Source: Syncephalis fuscata
Taxonomy: Eukaryota > Zoopagomycota > Zoopagomycetes > Zoopagales > Piptocephalidaceae
Assembly: GCA_025786725.1 (NCBI GenBank)
Contig: JAHLTZ010000050.1
Location: 1-64,000, forward strand
Reading direction: 5' to 3'
Length of the DNA stretch: 64,000 nt
In this document: piece by piece, positions 18,600 to 64,000 of the stretch
Position numbering within the stretch: the stretch's first letter is position 1
How the letters are laid out: every line of letters begins with the position of its first letter
The notes under the pieces: model-generated
What the model saw: the letters and a program-made list of their open reading frames with translations, nothing else
The model's database searches: none
Told to the model about the DNA's origin: nothing
Made by a program: the position numbers and the translations under genes

Positions 18600-20235
18600 A
18601 TGGCTACTACAAAGTACTTTACTGAACAAGAAGTGTCTAGTCACACGTCAGAGAATGACTGCTGGATTATTGTCCGTGGCAAAGTATATGATGTTACCAG
18701 CTTTTTGACCGAACATCCGGGTGGCAAGAAAGTAAGTAAATAGTACGACAGTTGGGGCCTTAACTAATGCTGATATCCAGGTAATTATGAATGTCGCAGG
18801 TACAGACGCGACCAAGCAGTTCGACGCCTTCCACAATACAGGCGTGTTAGAAAAATACGGTCCCAGTATGTATGTTGGCGAGGCCGGAAGTCCGCCACAC
18901 GAGGCCGATCAAGCTGTAGCGGAGAATGCAGAAGTGGATCTTAGCGAACCATTTGGTGATCTTATTCCATTTGGTGATCCTGCTTGGTATCAAGGCTGGG
19001 ACAGCCCATACTATAACGATTCACATCGACGATTCCGAGCACGTATGCGGGAATTTGTAGAACGTGAGGTCATACCATACTGTGATGAATGGGATGAGGC
19101 TAAACAAGTACCACGCGCTTTATTCATTAAATGTGCCGAGGTTGGTATTACAGCGGGTATTTGTGGTGAATTACCTGTGGAATTTATGGAAATTGATAAT
19201 ATTCTTGGCGTGCCACTCGATGAATTTGATATATTCCATGAATTCATTATTGGCGATGAAATATGTCGCTGTGGCTCTGGTGGTGTGCTTTGGGGTATTT
19301 GTGGCGGTTTTGGCATTGGTTTGCCGCCCGTCTTGCTATTTGCCTCTAATGAGCTCAAGCAACGCATTGTTCCAGATGTGTTGGCTGGCCGCAAAGTCAT
19401 CTGTCTGGCCATTACTGAGCCATATGCCGGAAGTGATGTAGCCAATATTCGCTGTGAAGCTAAAGAAACACCTGATGGTGAACACTTTATCGTTAATGGC
19501 GAGAAGAAGTGGATTACCAACGGTGTATTTGCCGATTACTTTACCGTTGCCGTACGTACTGGTGGTGGTGAAGGTATGAGTGGTATTTCATTGCTACTTA
19601 TCGAGCGTACTATGCCAGGTGTAAAGACACGTCAAATGCAATGCTCTGGCGTGTGGTCCTCGGGCACTGGCTATATTACTTTTGAAGATGTTAAAGTACC
19701 CAAGGCAAATCTTGTTGGCAAGCAAGATAAAGGCTTTAAGTGTATTATGTACAATTTCAACCATGAACGTATGTCTATTTGTATACAATCGACTCGATTC
19801 GCTCGTGTGTGCTTGGAAGAATCAATCAAGTATGCTAGTAAGCGCAAAACATTCGGCCGCCCATTGATTGAGCACCAAGTCATTCGCCATAAGTTGGCCG
19901 ATATGGCGCGTCGTATTGAAGCAACACACGCCTGGATGGAACAGCTTTTATATCAAAGCAAAATTATGTCACATAATGAAGCTATGGTCAAGCTCGGTGG
20001 CCCAATTGCTTTGTTAAAGGTACAAGCAACGCAAACATTCGAATTTTGTGCTCGCGAAGCATCACAAATCTTTGGTGGTCTTGCCTATACTCGTGGTGGC
20101 CAAGGCGGTAAGATTGAGCGTCTGTATCGCGAGGTACGTGCCTACGCTATTCCTGGTGGCTCTGAGGAGATTATGACGGATCTTGGTATGAAGCAATCAA
20201 TTAAGGTGGCCCAATTTCTTGGTGCTAAAATATAA
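18600..20235 (+). CDS. acyl-CoA dehydrogenase with N-terminal cytochrome b5 domain
   Basis: FAD-dependent dehydrogenase predicted to introduce the 2,3-double bond into an acyl-CoA, fused to a heme-binding cytochrome b5 domain. Exons are 18600-18731 and 18781-20235, giving 528 residues with no frame break. The b5 part has 'TEHPGG' and a second His in 'FHN', the two axial heme ligands. The remainder shows the ACAD N-terminal helical, middle beta ('CLAITEPYAGSD', 'GEKKWITNG') and C-terminal helical parts ('AREASQIFGGLAYTRGGQGG', 'YREVRAYAIPGGSEEIM'). Acyl chain specificity cannot be read. Such b5-ACAD fusions are known in fungi. The redox partner role of the b5 domain is inferred. Confidence 0.9.
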
Positions 20236-20445: not shown

Positions 20446-23400
20446 TTTCTGATAACATTCGCGTAATTGAACTAGGCATTCAATCTATTGAACATGGAAC
20501 TAGGTGATGAGTGGCATTAATCATCAAATACTTATCATTGTAGATTCATTATCCAGTATGCATATATTCAGTACACATATATATCATTCTATAATATACC
20601 AAACACATTCTATTTATTATAAATTTAGTACATTTATTTATTATATCCATTGAATTATATAGCTAGCACTGCTAATCACATACTTCTCGCTGTATATTCA
20701 TTAAAGTTATAAAGGTATATTGCATGCAACTCAATGAATAAAATGAATGCAGCATGTTAAGGACTATAGCAAATAGATTGTGCTCAACGTATGATAGAGT
20801 GCTATACAGCAGTATAAATATACAACATTAATTGTGTGTATGTATATAATATATGCGTACAGTATAATGAGATTGTCATTGATGAGTGATGTTATTTACC
20901 CGATTCCATGTTCACTAGGACGAATGTGGAGTTCAACTATGTTAATATTGTTACATGTAGCTATTTGATCCTCAAATTATATCAAATGGCTAGTAAAATT
21001 GCTAATAAAAACAAATTGTATAATAATGTTAAATGACATATAGTATATTATACGATTGATACAGCTTATTCGACTTGCACAACAGAGAATTAAGTTTTTA
21101 AAAATTAAAATATTTGAACACACCATACAGAACATACAATATGTTAAATACAATAGTCAAAAAGTAAAAGTGAAATCTAATATGTTTACTATTTAAGCCA
21201 TAATAAAAGCAATACTACCAACAAGTAACAAAACAATGTTAAGCATAGTCTGTATCTAAGGTGTTTAACCTCTAACTGTTCCATAATATGGAACATAAAC
21301 AGCATGGTTCGATGGTGATCCATTAATTCCTGGATTAGGATCAATTACAATATACCCGGAATATGACCATATTTCGCCATTTTGTATATTCCTCGGCACA
21401 CTAATCTTTATGTTGATCTCGCTTATCTGATTTAGTCGTAAATCAATAGATCCTGGAAGGGAAACGGTTGCAATCACATGTTTTCCTGACGATGTATTGC
21501 TAATAGGTTTTGATTTCAAAACTGCAGCGGCTGGAATATGTGAAAGTTTATACGATGCTGATGTGTCAGATAGAGGTAAAAGTTTGATCAATACATCCAC
21601 TGCGTTGGTATACGTGTCCTCCAAATTAATTAACGATGGTTCAACATGAACACTTTTAGTATCTATTAGTTTGGTAAGATTGATTATACCGGAGCCTTGA
21701 TATAATGGAGAAACGTAGGAATCTGCATTACTGACTTTGACGGGAACTGCGCTGTTTTGTAATATAGTTCTGACATGGTTAACATCAACCAAGCTCTTGT
21801 TATCAATTTCAGCTATCAATGCAGCTGCACCGGCAACATATGCAACAGCAGCTGATATATCGCTGAAATGGGGTTTGCTTATTGTTTTACGAGTGGTAGT
21901 AGTGTAGATTTCGTGACTTGGTGCCAAGATGTCAGGATAGAAAGGCGGTATGAATGGTTCATTCTGCGGTCCAGCTGTATCGACAGTAACACTGCCATCT
22001 TTAATGTAGCCATACTTTTCTGCAAAACTATATCTGTATCCAAGCTTATTCGCATAGCCTTCTTTTATAAACAAAGCATCTTTTTCACTGATATCAAATA
22101 AAGGCATATCGCATTTCTGTCTTTTTTGATAAGGACCGTTTACAATTATAAGTCCAGTCATTCTTATTGTTTTGGCATACCTTAACAAAGAAGGCATTCT
22201 TGATTTATCATACCACACAAGTGCAATGTCTCCTCTTTTAAGCCCAGTAAGATGTTCGTTTAATTTGTCATTGATATTTTTAGAAATAATATTCATTTCT
22301 TTGTTAAAGTTATAGCTCATGTCTGAACACGGAGAATTAAACTCAATACGACGGCCAGTTGTTTTCTCCTCAAACCAGTGCGATAGTCGATACTTTTGTT
22401 TAAAACCACCAACACTTAATACAGGAAGGCCTTGATATGAAAAGTAATTTGGATTTATAAAATTATTGGCTGATGCTGCAACAATCATAATCACGCCACG
22501 TTTTGCAGCATATTCTATTGTTTCTCTCAGTTTAGTGCTGTATTCATCTACAATGGCAATCTCCGGCAATACAACAATTTTCATTTGGTCCTGGCGTATT
22601 GCAATTGTTATAGCTTTCAACACCAATGAGGTTGAAGTTGGGCCCGTGCAGCCAAACACGCGATAGGTGCCAAGTGTTGCCTCGGGTGCAACTCCAGTAA
22701 AATAATTGGTTTTTGCAACAGCAATACCAGCTAGATTTACACCACGTCTATTGCATTCAGATGGATGTTTATCTTGGTTATTATCAGTGCTACAAGTGTG
22801 TAAAATAATTATAATTTCCTTCAAATGCCTTGGCGTTTAGTGTAATTCCAGCATCAATAATTCCGAGTCTAACACCTTTTCCTTTGATACCATTGGCATG
22901 AAGTGCTTCAACGCCGGTGGACACATAATAAGGTGTTACATAAACTGTTTGCTGGTGATTTAGAGCTAATATAGGGACGGCCATAATTAGGTTTTGTGTA
23001 AAAATCATCTTCATATGTTTTGGCACTGTCTACGGTAAAGTGGTGTGTTGAACAAAATAGCAACAATGTAAATATTACCAGTTGTTGTGCTTGTCTTGCT
23101 ATCATATTATAAGCAACTGATGTATCAAAAAATAATTGTATGGTTTAATTATAGGAAAGTGTTGACAAAAAGTAAATGAAAAATAAGACAATGTATATGA
23201 GACGAAAATAAATAAATAAATAAATTCAGATGACATGGCTCTATAAAAGAATAATGACATGTGCTAGATGCCATTTTAGGTTATTAAACAAAATATTTAA
23301 GAAAGGTGTCCAAAATTGTACCAACAGTAATGCGGTAGTTGAATAGAAACCACTAGTAATTCGATTTTTACTTGTTTACATTCTCCATTCTAGTAACTAT
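20446..23400. repeat. segmental duplication D1 (subtilisin segment)
   Basis: About 2.95 kb is repeated in the same orientation at 52704-55672. It includes the broken subtilisin gene, its flanks and MITE-like termini at the left. Identity is very high over most of the length, indicating a recent copy. Beyond the ends the sequences diverge abruptly. Confidence 0.85.
21265..23105 (-). pseudogene. subtilisin-like (S8) protease with lost catalytic His, copy 1, frame-broken
   Basis: Parts in order: signal peptide (from 23105), S8 core with the catalytic-Asp motif 'GIIDAGI' (near 22855), a PA-like insert, 'PDILAPSHEIYTT', the Ser region 'FSDISAAVAYVAGAAALI' (near 21860), and an Fn3-like C-terminal domain. 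In S8 enzymes the His motif is HGTHVAGI; here the aligned stretch is 'RRGVNLAGI', so His is replaced by Arg. Two frame changes (near 22955 and 22800) split the ORF compared with copy 2. Seen: the residues and breaks. Inferred: a proteolytically dead protein or decaying gene. The fragment from 21265 to 22824 is still a long open frame. Confidence 0.7.
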
Positions 23401-36163: not shown

Positions 36164-36999
36164 CTCTTTATAGTTAAAGAATTACGGTTAATTTATATAT
36201 AGCAGTAAAAACCTGTATAAAAATATCAGTTTGATACATTAAGCTTGTTTTTGCATCAGTATTGTATGCTATTTTGTATGTAACAATATTGAGACTGAAT
36301 CGGTAGAAATGGCAGCAGACATCATTATCTTTTTACAAAACCAAACAATATACTTGCTTTTACCAAATAATTAACCGTGTAATAAAAAAACAGGTTAATG
36401 TGTCTATTTTTACCATATGTACTGGGTTATGAACACCGTTACAGTACTCGTGCAAATGACTAACAGATTGAAGTAAAGACCGGGCAGGTTGTGTGCTGTT
36501 TAGTATGCATGCAGATATTGAGGACTGAATCGGTAGAAATGGCGGCAAAAATATCACTATTGCTTTTACAAAGTTAAACAATACCTTGCTTTTACCAAAT
36601 AGTTAAACCGTATAATAAAAAAGCAAAGTGATGTACATGTCTCTATCGCACATGTAATGCTCATTGGAATTGCCGTGTCATTTGTGTAAATGCCGAGCAG
36701 GTTGAAATTAAGTTTGAAAGCATAATATCACGCCATGAATCTATTGGTGCATGTGCACCTCAAACCATTATTTGGATTGTTTATTGGTTCATATTACACA
36801 TCAATGGTATATCTCGTATACTACAGTATACTGGCATCTCAGCATGATTATAAGTATAAATAGCCCACAGAATATACACATCCAACTGCGGTATCCTCAT
36901 CACACTCTACTCTCTGCTAAACACACTCTACTCTCCACTTTATACCAACCACACTCTACTATCTCTTTTTTTTGTTTGTCTTAACAATTCAATATCACC
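36164..36999 (+). promoter_or_regulatory. upstream region of microexon gene 1 (cassette A2, right part)
   Basis: Shared with A1 and A3. A block of about 110 bp beginning with the GAATCGGTAGAAATGGC motif is duplicated roughly 230 bp apart (near 36298 and 36528). A TATAAATA box lies at 36855-36862, and the leader carries three CACACTCTACT repeats (36900-36965) before the ATG at 37000. Conservation across three copies suggests a working promoter; factors are unknown. Confidence 0.55.
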
Positions 37000-39626
37000 A
37001 TGAAGCTTTCCATTGCCGTCGTTTGCACCATTGTCGTGGCTCTTGTGGCCAGTACAGCCATCGTGGATGCTAAACCAGCCTTAGTTCGTCGTGGTATGTT
37101 GCAATAACAATAAATATGCCATAGTATCTGCTTATTAATAGTATTGCTAACTAATAATGCTATTAGATCGTAAGTTGTACTGTATATTAGCTAATGACTC
37201 ATTAATTATATTCATGCACTATGTGTATCAACAACTTAATACTAATAGTTAGTAAGTTCTATTATATACCAATAAATTATACACTAATTATACGTCATGT
37301 ACTGTATCAATTGACAACTTAATATTAGATAGCTGTAAGTTATATTGTATATTGGTTGATTGCTCACTAATTGCATGCTATGGACTATGTGTATCAACAA
37401 ATTAATACTAATAGGCAGTAAGTGATATTGTATATTGATGACTTATAAATTAAGTATATATCATGTATTGCGTACATCGATAACTTAATATAATAGATGG
37501 TAAGTTGTATTGTGTATTAAATGACTATAAACTAATTATATATTATGTGTTGCATGTATCAATGACTTAATATTAGACCAATGTAAATTATATTGTATAT
37601 TGATTGTACACTGGCTAATTATATATTATGCGTTGTATGTATCAATAACTTAATAATAATAGGCAGTAAGTAGCATTGTATATTAACTGACTATGTACTA
37701 ACCACGTGTTATGCATAATATATATCAACAACTTAATACTAATAGGTAGTAAGTGATATTGTATATTGCTGACTTATGAATTAATTGTATACCATGTATT
37801 GTGCGTATCAACAACTTGATATAATAGCTGGTAAGTTATATTGTATGAACCAATTGTTCGCTAATTATACCATATACCGTGTTTATCAAAAAATTAATTA
37901 TATAGAATGTAAGCTATATTATATATTAACTGACCATTCACTAATTACGTGTTATGTATTGTATACATTAACAATTTAATATTAATAGGTGGTAAGTTGT
38001 ATTGTATATTAACTGACTATACATTAATTATGCTATTTACTAATTGTACCAATTACCTAATATTAATAGGGGTAAGTTGTATTGTATATTAACTGACTAT
38101 ACATTAACTATGCTATTTACTAATTGTACCAATTACCTAATATTAATAGGTGGTAAGCTGTATTGTATATTAAATTACTATACATTAACTATGTTATTTA
38201 CTGATGGTACCAATTGTTTAATATTAATAGTCTGTAAGTTGTATTGTATATTAACTGACTATACATTGACTATGTTATTCACTAATTGTATCTATTGTTT
38301 AATATTAATAGTCCGTAAGTGTATCGTATATTAACTGACTATAAATTAACTATGCTATTTACTGATGGTACCAATTATTTAATATTAATAGTGTGTACGT
38401 GATATTGTATATTAACTGACTATACATTAACTATGCTATTTACTGATAATACCAATTGTTTAATACTAATAGACAGTAAGTTGTATTGTATATTAAATAA
38501 CTATATATTAGCTATGCTATTTACTAATTGTACATAATGTTTAATATTAATAGAAAGTAAGTTGTATTGTATATTAACTGGCTATACATTAATTATATAT
38601 TATGTACTGTATGCATCAACAACTTAATATAATAGGATGTAAGTTGTATTGTATATTAACTGACCATACATTAAATATGTTATTTACTGATTGTACTTAT
38701 TATTTAATATTAATAGGTCGTAAGTTGTATTGTATATTAACTGACTATGCATTAACTATGTTATTTACTAATTGTGCCAACTATTTAATATTAATAGTCT
38801 GTAAGTTGTATTGTATATTAACTGACTATACATTAACTATGCTATTTACTGATGGTACCAATTGTTTAATATTAATAGGGGGTAAGTGGTATTTTATATC
38901 AACTGACTATACACTAATTATATATTATACATAATATATATCAACAACTTAATATAATAGGTTGTAAGTAGTATTGTATATTAATTGACTATATATTAAT
39001 TACATTCCATTTACTAATGCATCAACAAATTAACATTAATAGGTCGTAAGTTGTGTTGCATACTAACTGAATATATATTAATTATATACCATGTATTTTA
39101 TTCATCAATAATTTAATATTAATAGACAGTAAGGTATATTGTATATTAACCAACCATTTACTAACCACATGCTATTTAATGTATCCATCAACAACTTAAT
39201 ATTAATAGACAGTAAGTTGAGTTGTATACCAATAGAACATGCGCTAATTATATACTGTGGACTGTATCCACCAACAACTTAATATTAATAGCATGTAAGT
39301 GGTATTGTATATTAATTGATTACTTACTAATTACATGTTATGCATCATGTGTATCAACAACCTAATACTAATAGGTCGTAAGTAGCATTTTATATTGGTT
39401 GATAACCCACTAATCACATGTTATGCATCATGTGTATCCATAACTTAATACTAATAGGCAGTAAGTAGCATTTTATATTGATTAATTACTCACTAATTAC
39501 ATGTTATGCACCATGTGTATCAATAACTTAATATCAATAGTCAGTAAGTAATATTGTATATTGATGGCTTATACACTAATTATATAACACGTACTATTTT
39601 TATTTATAAATGCAGATAATCCATAA
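37000..39626 (+). CDS. microexon gene 1: secreted Cys-rich peptide from ~30 codon-sized exons
   Basis: Exon 1 (37000-37093) encodes a 24-residue signal peptide ending V-D-A, then 'KPALVRR'. After intron 1 come units of about 81 bp, each with an AG acceptor, a tiny exon and a GTAAGT-type donor. Tiny exons start at 37167, 37249, 37329 (6 nt), 37415, 37497, 37577 (6 nt), 37663, 37746, 37828, 37906, 37989, 38070 (2 nt), 38150, 38231, 38312, 38392, 38473, 38554, 38636, 38717, 38798, 38879, 38961, 39043, 39126, 39209, 39292, 39375, 39458 and 39541; all others are 3 nt. The last exon begins at 39616, with TAA at 39624-39626. All introns are phase 1. If the 2-nt exon is really 3 nt, the product has 66 residues. 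The mature part has Cys spaced C-x3-C-x3-C, about 8 residues, C-x3-C-x3-C. Splicing is inferred; function unknown. Confidence 0.65.
37094..39615 (+). repeat. tandem ~81-bp intron/microexon repeat array, copy 1
   Basis: About 31 units, spaced 75-86 bp (most 80-83). Each contains a GTAAGT donor, 'TTGTATTGTATATTAACTGA', a 'TTTACTAAT'-like branch region and a TTAATATTAATAG acceptor. Neighbouring units around 37990-38240 are nearly identical, showing recent tandem duplication. The variable bases concentrate in the 3 nt between acceptor and donor. Confidence 0.85.
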
Positions 39627-41089
39627 GCATAAGGACATTAGCATTGGTAGTGCAATCGAACCACTATTCCAATACAATTTAGGTATATATTCGGTGAAAA
39701 GCAAGACCATTTGACAATTACGCCGTCCAGTCTATTTATATATCAAGTTTTGGCCAATGCTCCGGTTTATCCAGTCTTTAATCAATGGAATCATTATGTT
39801 ACCAACATGTTTGCATCTAGTTGCCTCTATTCAACTGTGCAAGCTTATAGTAATAAATCTATGGTTCCATCTTAGCTATATACAATCAAATTGCTATATC
39901 TATAACCATGTTCTATTTGCATTCAATAATGACAATTATCAATCAAATAGTTAAATTAATAACAAAATGTGTATAATTATATCGCCTAAGCTATAGGCAT
40001 AGATTGGTATGGATAGTAGTAAAGCTATCATTATCATATAGCCCAATAATAGTATGCTGAAATTAGAATAAATACGCTTTTTAATAAAACATGACAATAA
40101 AGCATACAATATTATAAAACAAAATAAATAGACAAAACGAATACGTGAATAGTAATACAAAACTATACTGTATGCAATTAGCCAATAGTAATGAACGAAA
40201 TGGATCAAAATCTGCTAAAAGAATACAGTTAGCAATAAACTTTTAGCTTTTATTAATATAATTTCTACAATTTACAATATTAATGATATAGACGGACATA
40301 TAGTATGTGTATACAAGACAGATATGTACAGTACAACAATAATGATAAATAAATAGCTTAATAACCAATGACACTCAACAGCCAGTTTCATCTTCAATAA
40401 AGCGGATATTTTGTTTAAATGTGTGGCTATTATAGCTATTTAACTGCCAAATCACACTAAACAACCAATAGCTGCTTAATATTGTGGAAAAAGTGATCTT
40501 TATTTAGTTAATAAAAATATCATAAGATTTGATACAAATCAAGTGGTTTAAATGATCCGTCACAGCACCCTTTAAGCTTCTTTCGCCATGTTCCACACTC
40601 TTTTAAATTAGAACATTGAAGCGACTACTGCGACATTTAAAATGAACGTTACGAGTAGATTGTTTAGTTTATCAATGACAAATGTCATGTTGACGGTTTT
40701 ATTTTGCACATCTTCACTCTTGCTTGATACACCAACTAATTAATTTAAGTTGATCAAAGCAATAACACTTTTATGTAATTCGAAATTATTTATTGCTATA
40801 TCTGATATTTAAAATACTCTAAACCAATCTAATCTTATTTGTTGGTTAGATTTAAATCTAAAATATTTATTAATTAAACATTTTTGTTTGCATTACATTT
40901 ATTTATTTTGATAGTTGCTTCATTAGTAGTTTGTATTTATTCAATAAAAACGTTTATTTCAACATTAAATACTGTTCCAACACAATTAGTGCTAATCTTT
41001 ACATAGCATGTTTTTGTATGTATTTTGAATTGCATTTGCCACAAATATATTGTTAAAGCTTTTAACAAATAAAACATGATTAGCTTTTC
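39627..41089. other. 3' flank and intergenic, no gene recognised
   Basis: Contains the 3' flank of microexon gene 1 and A+T-rich sequence. An alternative reading frame of its last exon stays open to TGA at 39712. A possible MITE trace ('ACACTCAACAGCCAGTTTCATCTTCAATA') lies near 40370. No other feature. Confidence 0.45.
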
Positions 41090-52703: not shown

Positions 52704-55672
52704 TTTTCTGATAACATTCGCGTAATTGAACTAGGCATTCAATCTATTGAACATGGAGCTAGGTGATGAGTGACATCAATCATCAAATACTTATCATTGT
52801 AGATTCATTATCCAGTATGCATATATTCAGTACACATATATATCATTCTATAATATACCAAACACATTCTATTTATTATAAATTTAGTACATTTATTTAT
52901 TATATCCATTGAATTATATAGCTAGCACTGCTAATCACATACCTCTCGCTGTATATTCATTAAAGTTATAAAGGTATATTGCATGCAACTCAATGAATAA
53001 AATGAATGCAGCATGTTAAAGACTATAGCAAATAGATTGTGCTCAACGTATGATAGAGTGCTATACAGCAGTATAAATATACAACATTAATTATGTGTAT
53101 GTATATAATATATGCGTACAGTATAATGACGATTGTCATTGATGAGTGATGTTATTTACCCGATTCCATGTTCACTAGGACGAATGTGGAGTTCAACTAT
53201 GTTAATATTGTTAGATGTAGCTATTTGATCCTCAAATCATATCAAATGGCTAGTAAAATTGCTAATAAAAACAAATTGTATAATAATGTTAAATGACATA
53301 TAGTATATTATACGATTGATACAGCTTATTCGACTTGCACAACAGAGAATTAAGTTTTTAAAAATTAAAATATTTGAATACACCATACAGAACATACAAT
53401 ATGTTAAATACAATAGTCAAAAAGTAAAAGTGAAATCTAATATGTTTATTAGTTAAGCCACAATAAAAGCAATACTGCCAACAAATAACAAAACAATGTT
53501 AAGCATAGTCTATATCTAAGCTGTTTAACCTCTAACTGTTCCATAATATGGAACATAAACAGCATGGTTCGATGGTGATCCATTAATTCCTGGATTAGGA
53601 TCAATTACAATATACCCGGAATATGACCATATTTCGCCATTTTGTATATTCCTCGGCACACTAATCTTTATGTTGATCTCGCTTATCTGATTTAGTCGTA
53701 AATCAATAGATCCTGGAAGGGAAACGGTTGCAATCACATGTTTTCCTGACGATGTATTGCTAATAGGTTTTGATTTCAAAACTGCTGCGCTGGAATATGT
53801 GAAAGTTTATACGATGCTGATGTGTCAGATAGAGGTGAAAGTTTGATCAATACATCCACTGCGTTGGTATACGTGTCCTCCAAATTAATTAACGATGGTT
53901 CAACATGAACACTTTTAGTATCTATTAGTTTGGTAAGATTGATTATACCGGACCTTGATATAATGGAGAAACGTAGGAATCTGCATTACTGACTTTGACG
54001 GGAACTGCGCTGTTTTGTAATATAGTTCTGGCATGGTTAACATCAACCAAACTCTTGTTATCAATTTCAGCTATCAATGCAGCTGCACCCGCAACATATG
54101 CAACAGCAGCTGATATATCGCTAAAATGAGGTTTGCTTATTGTTTTACGAGTGGTAATGGTGTAGATTTCGTGACTTGGTGCCAAGATGTCAGGATAGAA
54201 AGGTGGTATGAATGGTTCATTCTGCGGTCCAGCTGTATCGACAGTAACACTGCCATCCTCGATGTAGCCATACTTTTCTGCAAAAATATATTTGTATTAC
54301 GTCTATTCTATAACCTTCTTCTATAAATATAGCATCTTTTTCACTGATATCAAACAAAGGCATATCGCATTTTTGTCTTTTTTGGTAAGGATTGTTTACG
54401 ATGATAAGCCTAGCCATCCGTATTGATTTAGCATATTCTAAAAAATAAGGAGTTTTTGATTTATCATACCATACAAGTGCAATGTCTTCTCTTTTAAGCT
54501 CAGTAAGATGTTCTTCTAATCTGCTCTTGATATTTCTAGGAATAATATTCATTTCTTTGTTAAAGTCATAGCTCATGTCTGAACATGGAGAATTAAACTC
54601 AATACGACGGCCAGTTGTTTTCTCCTCAAACCAGTGCGATAGTCGATACTTTTGTTTAAAACCACCAACACTTAATACAGGAAGGCCTTGATATGAAAAG
54701 TAATTTGGATTTATAAAATTATTGGCTGATGCTGCAACAATCATAATCACGCCATGTTTTGCAGCATCTTCTATTGTTTCTTTTAGTTTAGTACTGTATT
54801 CATCTACAATGGCAATCTCCGGCAATACAACAATTTTCATTTGGTCCTGGCGTATTGCAATTGTTATAGCTTTCAACACCAATGAGGTTGAAGTTGGATC
54901 TGTGCAACTAAATACGCGATAGGTGCCAAGTGTTGCCTCGGGTGCAACTCCAATAAAATAATTGGTTTTTGCAACGGCAATTCCAGCTAGACTTACACCA
55001 CGTCTATTGCATTTAGATGGATGTTTAGCTTGACTGTAATTAATAGACACAAGTCCATGATTATAATTATAATTTCCTTCAAATGCATCAGTGTTCGAAT
55101 TAATCCCGCTGTCAATAATTCCGAGTTTCACGCCTTTTCCTTTAATACCATTGGCATGAAGTGCTTTAACGCCGGTGGGTACATAATAAGGTGTTACATA
55201 AACTAGTTTACCGGTAATTCTAGAGCTAATATAGGGCCAGTCATAATTAGGTTTTGTGTAAAAATCATCTTCATATGTTTTGGCACTGTCTACGGTAAAG
55301 TGTGTGTTGAACAAAATAGCAACAATGTAAATATTACCAGTTGTTGTGCTTGTCTTGCTATCATAGTTATAAGCAACTGATGTATCAAAAAATAATTGTA
55401 TGGTTTAATTATAGGAAAAGTGTCGACAAAAAGTAAATGAAAAATAAGACAATGTATATGAGACGAAAATAAATAAATAAATAATATTCAGATTCAGATG
55501 ACATGGCTCTATAAAAGAATAATGACATGTGCTAGATGCCATTTTAGGTTATTAAACAAAATATTTAAGAAAGGTGTCCAAAATTGTACAACAGTAATGC
55601 GGTAGTTGAATAGAAACCACTAGTAATTCGATTTTTACTTGTTTAATTCTCCATTCTAGTAACTATCATGTG
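52704..55672. repeat. segmental duplication D2 (subtilisin segment)
   Basis: Second copy of 20446-23400, same orientation, inserted between the bS21m gene and the small ORF at 56300. Differences are mostly single substitutions and small indels. Confidence 0.85.
53525..55363 (-). pseudogene. subtilisin-like (S8) protease with lost catalytic His, copy 2, frame-broken
   Basis: Same architecture as copy 1. The N-terminal two thirds (54217-55314) is one open frame with the Asp motif 'GIIDSGI' and 'NRRGVSLAGI' at the His position, again Arg instead of His. Frame changes occur near 55303 (signal peptide), 54295, 53953 and 53787 relative to copy 1. The Ser-region block and Fn3-like tail persist in separate frames. 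Because copies 1 and 2 share the His loss but not the frame breaks, the His loss predates the duplication. Inferred inactive. Confidence 0.7.
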
Positions 55673-62402: not shown

Positions 62403-64000
62403 ATGAAGCTTTCCATTGCCGTCGTTTGCACCATTGTCGTGGCTCTTGTGGCCAGTACAGCCATCGTGGATGCTAAACCAGCCTTAGTTCGTCGTGGTAT
62501 GTTGCAATAACAATAAATATGCCATAGTATCTGCTTATTAATAGTATTGCTAACTAATAATGCTATTAGATCGTAAGTTGTACTGTATATTAGCTAATGA
62601 CTCATTAATTATATTCATGCACTATGTGTATCAACAACTTAATACTAATAGTTAGTAAGTTCTATTATATACCAATAAATTATACACTAATTATATGTCA
62701 TGTACTGTATCAATTGACAACTTAATATTAGATAGCTGTAAGTTATATTGTATATTAGTTGATTGCTCACTAATTGCATGCTATGGACTATGTGTATCAA
62801 CAAATTAATACTAATAGGCAGTAAGTGATATTGTATATTGATGACTTATAATTAAGCATATATCATGTATTGCGTACATCGATAACTTAATGTCATAGTG
62901 GGTAAGTTGTATTGTGTATTAAATGACTATAAACTAATTATATATTATGTGTTGTATGTATCAATGACTTGATATTAGACCAATGTAAGTTATATTGTAT
63001 ACTGATTGCACCTAGCTAATTATATATTATGCGTTGTGTGTATCAATAACTTAATAATAATAGGCAGTAAGTAGCATTGTATATTAACTGACTATGTACT
63101 AACCACGCGTTATGCATAATATATATTAACAACTTAATACTAATAGGTAGTAAGTGATATTGTATATTGCTGACTTATGAATTAATTATATCAATATACC
63201 GTGTGTATCAAAAAATTAATAATATAGAATGTAAGGTATATTATATATTAACTGTTCATTCACTAATTACGTGTTATGTATTTTATACATTAACAATTTA
63301 ATATTAATAGGTGGTAAGTTGTATTGTATATTAACTGACTATACATTAACCATGCTATTTACTGATTGTACCAACTATTTAATATTAATAGGCAGTAAGT
63401 AATATTGTATATTAGTTAACTATACATTAATTATACTATTTACTAATGTATTAATTATTTAATATTAATAGTTGGTAAGTTGTATTGTATATTAAATAAT
63501 TATACATTAACTGCTATTTACTGATTATATTGATTATTTAATACCAATAGACAGTAAGCGATATTGTATATTAACTGACTATAAATTAACCATGCTATTT
63601 ATTGATTTTATCTATTATTTAATACTAATAGACAGTAAGTGATATCGTATATTAACTGACTATACATTAACCATGCTATTTATTAATTCTGCTTATTATC
63701 TAATATTAATAGTCTGTAAGTGGTATTGTATATTGATCGACTATACATTAACCATGCTATTAATTGATTGTACTTATTATTTAATATTAATAGGTGGTAA
63801 GCTGTATTGTATATTATTTGACCATATATTAACTATGTTATTTACTAATTGTATCAATTACCTAATATTAATAGTCGGTAAGTTGTATTGTATACTAACT
63901 GACTATACATTAACTATGCTATTTACTAATTGTACCTATTGTTTAATGTTAATAGTTCGTAAGTGATATTGTATATTAACTGACTATACAATAACCATGC
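62403..64000 (+). CDS. microexon gene 2 (partial, runs off right edge)
   Basis: Exon 1 (62403-62496) is identical to that of copy 1: signal peptide plus 'KPALVRR'. Microexons start at 62570, 62652, 62732 (6 nt), 62818, 62899, 62979 (6 nt), 63064, 63147, 63228, 63311, 63392, 63472, 63551, 63632, 63713, 63794, 63875 and 63956, all others 3 nt, every intron phase 1. The first eight correspond one to one with copy 1, with one changed base set (TGG for ATG at 62899). The ninth exon of copy 1 (37828) is absent, and later exons differ. The joined frame stays open, with Cys pattern C-x3-C-x2-C-x5-C up to the edge. Splicing is inferred. Confidence 0.65.
62497..64000 (+). repeat. tandem ~81-bp intron/microexon repeat array, copy 2
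   Basis: At least 18 units with the same donor, branch and acceptor blocks as the array at 37094-39615; spacing 79-86 bp. The array continues past the right edge. Confidence 0.85.

Follow-up and report, generated by a model that had tools for sequence, protein, structure and literature searches.

Can the mature part of a secreted peptide be assembled from some thirty exons, each no longer than a codon? This question is raised by a locus in a stretch of 64,000 nucleotides of Syncephalis fuscata DNA, which was analysed as a whole and is called the window below. The first-pass annotation had described here a signal-peptide exon of 94 nt followed by about 30 units repeating at about 81 bp, most of them 3 nt long, two of 6 nt and one of 2 nt. 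Both the arrangement and the unit sizes were confirmed, with exon 1 at 37001–37094 and the units at 37167–39543. The features of this gene, and of a second one cut by the end of the window, are the following.

36900–37000, forward strand: upstream region (promoter/5' UTR), conserved in similar form between array genes and intronless paralogs
37001–39626, forward strand: window array gene, composed of exon 1, 30 units spaced about 81 bp and a terminal exon
37001–37094, forward strand: exon 1, 94 nt, ending in phase 1; signal peptide MKLSIAVVCTIVVALVASTAIVDAKPALVRR and the first base of the next codon
37095–37166, forward strand: intron 1, GTATGT...ATTAG, as read in the sequence
37167–39543, forward strand: 30 microexons (27 of 3 nt, 2 of 6 nt, 1 of 2 nt), from per-unit coordinates
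37329–37334, forward strand: 6-nt microexon; the third microexon has 6 nt in most other arrays too
37577–37582, forward strand: 6-nt microexon with a GTAAAT donor, from the unit annotation
38070–38071, forward strand: 2-nt unit GG, whose flanking introns look like near-copies of their neighbours
39544–39615, forward strand: last intron, with the 3' end TTTATTTATAAATGCAG, similar across paralogous arrays
39616–39760 (end approximate), forward strand: terminal exon with the last codons, TAA at 39624–39626 and a 3' UTR similar to that of the intronless paralogs
62404–64000, cut by the window end, forward strand: second array gene, with the same signal peptide as the window gene

The terminal exon of the second gene lies at about contig position 64692. 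In exon 1 of the window gene, which is conserved in the paralogs, the dibasic RR immediately precedes the mature part. The introns of the array are about 78 nt long, with mostly GTAAGT as donor and mostly ATAG as acceptor. The pattern AGNNNGTAAGT was found 40 times in the window, compared with a mean of 1.98 and a largest count of 6 in 100 shuffles, and 36 of the 40 matches fall within the two arrays (23 in the 37001–39626 copy and 13 in the copy from 62404). The window also carries two S8 subtilase-like genes (Pfam Peptidase_S8), both on the reverse strand, at 21265–22824 and 54217–55314; they are similar by eye and have open frames of unequal length.

A stop-free frame with six cysteines had been claimed for the joined units. 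The absence of stops held, whereas the six cysteines were recovered only when the 2-nt GG unit was skipped: the window copy then gives an open phase-1 frame with six Cys, while inclusion of GG leaves four Cys and no stop in the 60 terminal-exon bases examined. The GG unit at 38070–38071 could be either a skipped exon or a recent frameshift.

To place this gene within the genome, we used a 286-base query starting at 36890 and composed of the promoter, exon 1, intron 1 and the first 3-nt exon. At least 40 genomic places matched it with 86–100% identity, 40 of 282 candidate places having been scored, and arrays, as judged by the count of units, were present in all 30 loci read among these matches. 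We annotated 21 arrays, namely the window copy and L031–L050, in stretches of up to 6.5 kb. The terminal exon was located in 19 of them. Exon 1, whose signal-peptide nature was judged by eye, measures 94 or 97 nt in 19 of the 21 arrays (one of these without ATG), and its frame is broken in the other two. In 19 arrays the annotation comprises 543 microexons, of which 518 have 3 nt, 21 have 6, three have 2 and one has 8, so that 539 of 543 measure 3 or 6 nt. A similar picture emerged when acceptor and donor were scored separately and the length between them was left free from 0 to 30 nt: exactly 3 nt were enclosed in 484 of 488 units from the 21 arrays, with scoring matrices trained on 27 of the window copy's own 3-nt units.

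Genome-wide, the motif TTAATAG-N(0-14)-GTAAGT gave 2066 matches, against 55 for the reversed control; among the 100 matches listed, all on contigs C1 and C2, 97 enclose exactly 3 nt. Since this strict motif captures 44% of the annotated microexons, several thousand microexons may, by extrapolation, exist in the genome. Moreover, L080 is a more distant array gene with the signal peptide MKFSIAVVCAILVAIVASTATVDARPNLIRR, and the array family is therefore wider than the copies counted. As regards annotation, a 7-nt unit of L038 was set by hand to 6 nt in the intron statistics, and the final annotation also gave 6. An earlier version, which missed some GC and GTATGT donors, underlies the window Cys counts, the profile ranking, the intron statistics and the ten-pair divergence given in this text.

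Complete and open arrays account for 11 of the 21: the window copy with GG skipped, L031, L032, L034, L038, L039, L040, L041, L047, L048 and L050. The remaining 10 are broken, gapped or incomplete within the stretch. Exon 1 is broken in L036 and L049; L045 has lost its start codon and contains a stop; stops or odd units occur in L044 and L046; gaps of about 490 nt lie inside L035 and L042; L043 has a shorter, gapped array; and the terminal exon is absent from the stretch in L033 and L037. In L033 and L044 the array contains, or ends in, an inserted element of at least about 400 bp, and the end of this element resembles a tRNA read backwards, which gives it a SINE-like appearance by eye.

How would such units be read? 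Exons would be joined in order in phase 1, the first base of a codon coming from one exon and the second and third bases from the next. In this phase, the 11 complete open arrays contain 66 Cys and no stop in 346 codons, in contrast to 3 Cys and 3 stops in 357 codons in phase 0 and 11 Cys and 28 stops in 346 codons in phase 2. Since these arrays were selected as open, the lack of stops is partly a matter of choice, but the Cys excess and the contrast with the other phases are not due to this selection. With a shuffled exon order, the observed stop-free and Cys-rich state was reached in 0.02–3% of cases per gene over the 11 arrays. Phase 0, in which the triplets themselves would be the codons, was rejected in view of its few Cys and some stops. 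The genomic sequence thus strongly supports phase-1 joining of the 3-nt exons. Of the 11 open arrays, 9 encode a mature peptide with six Cys; L034, which reads CX3C..CX3C, has four and L039 has eight.

Alternatively, the whole array could be one long intron or a minisatellite, with exon 1 spliced directly to the terminal exon; the AG-NNN-GTAAGT units would then have arisen as a side effect of tandem duplication, or would serve as pure ratchet points, with loss of their three bases. This reading draws on the fact that the units are tandem copies with autocorrelated sequence and that joining exon 1 to the terminal exon also gives, by eye, a short open frame. It does not account for three-base exons that carry a Cys-rich phase-1 open frame across paralogs. 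Two further lines of evidence bear on it, namely the intronless relatives of the arrays and the divergence of the exons.

Intronless relatives were revealed when the spliced peptide of the window gene was used as a database query, which matched four deposited S. fuscata proteins. One of these, P0123, combines a signal peptide of the same type with a six-Cys mature part, and it is encoded by one open frame in the genome; among the matches listed in this genome search, about 45 of 150 extend well beyond the signal peptide and about 105 match the signal peptide alone (by eye). The six mature-part cysteines (C39, C42, C46, C58, C64 and C68 of P0123) are invariant in 19 aligned intronless proteins and are spaced, by eye, as CX2-3CX3-4C...CX3-7CX3-5C. 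Similarity to the arrays extends to both flanks: the 100 bases before the ATG show 62–94% identity to the window gene in 28 loci (27 intronless genes and the array L067), and the terminal exons of arrays carry the 3' UTR of the intronless genes with the same stop phase (by eye). The deposited models P0124 and P0127 appear, also by eye, to run into array introns; if the arrays are confirmed by RNA, annotation of such genomes can miss a whole family.

Other mature parts are found behind similar signal peptides. That of P0130 (contig C1) carries KR sites and SAIKHK/SALKHH-like repeats and differs from the six-Cys peptides; the signal exon seems to be common to unrelated mature parts. L068, P0129 and P0132 present another mature type, GPIPPFGACKCRDDDGYCTSC.

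We then asked whether the joined triplets of individual arrays match intronless genes. The clearest case is L039: along 16 successive 3-nt exons, 43 of its 48 bases are identical to those of the intronless L076. The alignment score is 71, the largest shuffled score being 34, and in tblastn the spliced L039 finds L076 with E 7e-23 and 71% over residues 1–78. For this comparison one GC-donor unit of L039 was added by pattern, and the automatic annotation later found the same unit. With spliced L047 as query, intronless genes matching the full length of L047 rank above L047's own exon 1, and 31 residues align ungapped with the intronless L089 with a score of 94 (shuffled maxima 49 for exon order and 60 for residues). 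The window copy with GG skipped aligns with the intronless L083, picked as target after the tblastn of spliced L039 had been seen; the alignment begins at the first mature residue and runs through to the shared NP ending. Its score of 47 was equalled by none of 2000 exon-order shuffles, whereas with GG included the score falls to -9, which 26 of 2000 shuffles reached.

Such matches are uneven over the family. At the nucleotide level, one of 13 arrays (L039) lies far outside the shuffles and the rest are weak or absent. In the earlier annotation, a profile of intronless peptides placed the true exon order ahead of each of 200 shuffles for 6 of 19 arrays, and in peptide alignments 5 of 11 arrays beat every exon-order shuffle. 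Residue shuffles are all beaten by two of the 11 (L039 and L047); the window copy and L031 do not stand out from them, 55 and 69 of 400 shuffles, respectively, being as good. Four spliced arrays used as DNA queries and two short mature peptides used as protein queries found nothing, an empty answer that does not show absence. That joined triplets spell homologs of intronless genes argues against the long intron and the minisatellite.

The intronless genes suggest a second alternative, in which the arrays are dead or silent copies and the working genes are the intronless ones. In its favour, the deposited family proteins that look complete (P0123, P0125 and P0126) are all intronless, and 10 of the 21 arrays show a disrupted exon 1, contain stops, odd units or inserts, or lack a terminal exon within the stretch. 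Against this stand the 11 complete and open arrays, counting the window copy with its 2-nt unit skipped, as well as the way in which their exons change.

Divergence was measured between orthologous units, both flanking introns of which are orthologous. In ten overlapping paralog pairs, 39 of 333 exon bases are changed, compared with 198 of 6718 in the intron interior; in four disjoint pairs the counts are 15 of 177 and 76 of 3575 (p 1.7e-5). In the tiny exons, divergence is about four times as fast as in their own introns. By codon position, the changes in the ten overlapping pairs amount to 21/103, 13/103 and 5/103 for positions 1, 2 and 3, and this excess at positions 1 and 2 over position 3 is what diversifying selection would be expected to produce in a phase-1 reading. 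The four disjoint pairs give 7/51, 4/51 and 3/51, in the same order, though the slower position 3 is not clear; in one of these pairs, L044/L050, all 63 exon bases are unchanged. Since two or three bases are altered together in several of the changed exons, the exon changes may represent exchange of units between paralogs or point substitution.

These results bear on both alternatives. Triplets that diverge faster than the surrounding introns are difficult to reconcile with one large intron or a minisatellite, which we rejected on the grounds of frame, homology and divergence together and regard as highly improbable. The same rapid exon change argues against silent copies, as does its concentration in codon positions 1 and 2, clear in the ten overlapping pairs but not in the four disjoint ones; silent arrays appear improbable to us. 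A mature peptide encoded by about 30 codon-sized exons with phase-1 joins, as the first-pass annotation had proposed, is supported by the frame statistics, the intronless paralogs and the exon divergence, all of them read from genomic sequence.

How did the arrays arise? Each of the 9 arrays tested shows more likeness between neighbouring introns than between non-adjacent ones, L039 weakly so. In 10 of 10 gene pairs, the first intron of one gene pairs with the first of the other and the last with the last, the middle introns being mixed. The likeness of adjacent introns and the pairing of end introns suggest that arrays lengthen and shorten through local duplication of units. Array length would change by local duplication or loss of an intron with its 3-nt unit and, since the unit has 3 nt, each gain or loss would add or remove exactly one residue without shifting the frame. 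The intronless relatives could derive from spliced mRNA through reverse transcription and recombination.

In the opposite direction, intronless genes could be ancestral, with copies of introns (introners) inserted between all codons. The introns are similar throughout, and introner-like elements have been reported from fungi (PMC4457414). A tree of the promoter and exon 1 from 31 arrays and 24 intronless genes implies 7 changes of state, at least 2 of them required by branches with good support, and is uninformative about the direction of change between the array and intronless states, which leaves room for this scenario. It would nevertheless require about 30 independent insertion events, spaced by three bases and nearly always in phase 1, while the loss of all introns through cDNA is a single step, and the greater likeness of adjacent introns fits local unit duplication. 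We therefore consider introner insertion unlikely, if somewhat less so than the two alternatives above, and retain local duplication and loss of units.

The splice sites of the arrays are uniform. In 562 introns from 19 arrays (median length 78 nt), the donor is GTAAGT in 468 and the acceptor ends in ATAG in 496. GC donors are preceded by G in 10 of 16 cases, compared with 107 of 527 for GT donors (p 4e-4), a preference that would be predicted from U1 pairing. The neighbouring acyl-CoA dehydrogenase gene (window about 18732–18780) has an ordinary short intron with a GTAAGT donor and a CAG acceptor. We infer the splicing of the family and its order from genome comparison. Because an acceptor and the next donor are 3 nt apart and could hardly both be occupied, the introns would be removed one after another. 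Each ligation would rebuild a GTAAGT donor beside the growing exon, in a ratchet-like process leaving three bases per step. In mammals, the exon junction complex is described as repressing the reuse of donors near junctions (PMC6224609). Loss of this complex as the reason for donor reuse is unsupported: Mago, one of its core proteins, is present in the S. fuscata genome, and absence of the complex thus cannot be invoked.

Little can be read from known structures about the product. The peptides were compared with the alpha-hairpinins, which are marked by CX3C...CX3C motifs and a helix-turn-helix fold. A PDB profile search gave hairpinin-like chains at E 0.96–8.8, below hepatocyte growth factor at E 0.17–0.77, none of them significant. 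Pfam returned no family for P0123, and six families were each matched by one other family member, with a best E of 0.0096. The structure model of P0123 contains helices and is poor (mean pLDDT 59.9). S. fuscata is a mycoparasite. The predicted peptide would be cleaved after RR, form three disulfides and act on host fungi or rivals, a role that is a guess from lifestyle and fast evolution.

Collectively, these data make it very likely, as judged from the genome, that S. fuscata possesses a large family of secreted, rapidly evolving, Cys-rich peptides whose mature part is encoded by arrays of codon-sized symmetric exons. More tentatively, and with our opinion slightly inclined to the negative, single-codon exons could constitute a diversification engine, in which units are duplicated, lost and exchanged under diversifying selection, so that residues and the length of loops are altered by single codons, transcripts are spliced codon by codon, and genes are occasionally frozen in an intronless state by reverse transcription. 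If RNA confirms the arrays, the spliceosome would be capable of about 30 consecutive ligations adding three bases each, far beyond the isolated tiny exons found in our literature search, and in a lineage far from the effector genes of schistosomes and aphids. Both the limits of splice-site pairing and the sequence in which introns are removed would become directly testable in one short gene, and peptides could evolve by whole codons without frameshifts.

Ratchet points of recursive splicing leave no base, whereas three bases, not zero, separate acceptor and donor in nearly all fungal units (the 484 of 488 above). In both processes, as described for recursive splicing (PMC6224609) and proposed here for the arrays, a donor is re-formed at the junction when an exon is spliced. 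Isolated microexons of 3 or 1 nt are reported to be spliced in vivo in Drosophila homothorax (PMC7392893) and plant APC11 (PMC8831610), and for APC11 intronless copies are described as well, their origin being ascribed to intron loss mediated by reverse transcriptase (PMC8831610); these microexons are solitary, whereas the fungal arrays hold about 30. In fungi, Trichoderma Xlr2 is described with one regulated microexon, in an account that calls work on fungal microexons limited (PMC11121469), which contrasts with the arrays seen here. The first-pass annotation had taken an array of codon-sized exons in a fungus to be undescribed and, in agreement, none appeared among the top-ranked results in the openly licensed literature.

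A profile search, which listed 13 S. fuscata proteins among 262 candidates, gave no homology to MEG or bicycle proteins at E ≤ 1. Schistosoma MEGs are described as having, like the arrays, a signal peptide and many short, mostly symmetric exons; they encode secreted variable proteins of a parasite and are hard for automatic annotation (PMC10526429). Their exons are given as mostly 15 bp long, within a range of 6–81 bp (3–81 in the abstract), and their introns as spanning 100 to almost 5000 bp (PMC10526429), whereas the fungal exons are nearly all of 3 nt and are separated by similar introns of about 78 nt. Aphid bicycle genes likewise have many small internal exons, nearly all of one phase and starting at codon position 2, and are presented as putative secreted effectors with fast evolution (PMC9168663). 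The fungal array exons also start at codon position 2, being flanked by phase 1 introns. Bicycle genes have about 17 exons on average (PMC9168663), while each fungal exon is a single codon and the introns are tandem copies. Finally, fungal introner-like elements share with the array introns the property of multiplying, but they are reported to insert in many genes (PMC4457414, PMC9860276), whereas the copies described here are tandem and belong to the arrays of the one family that was read.
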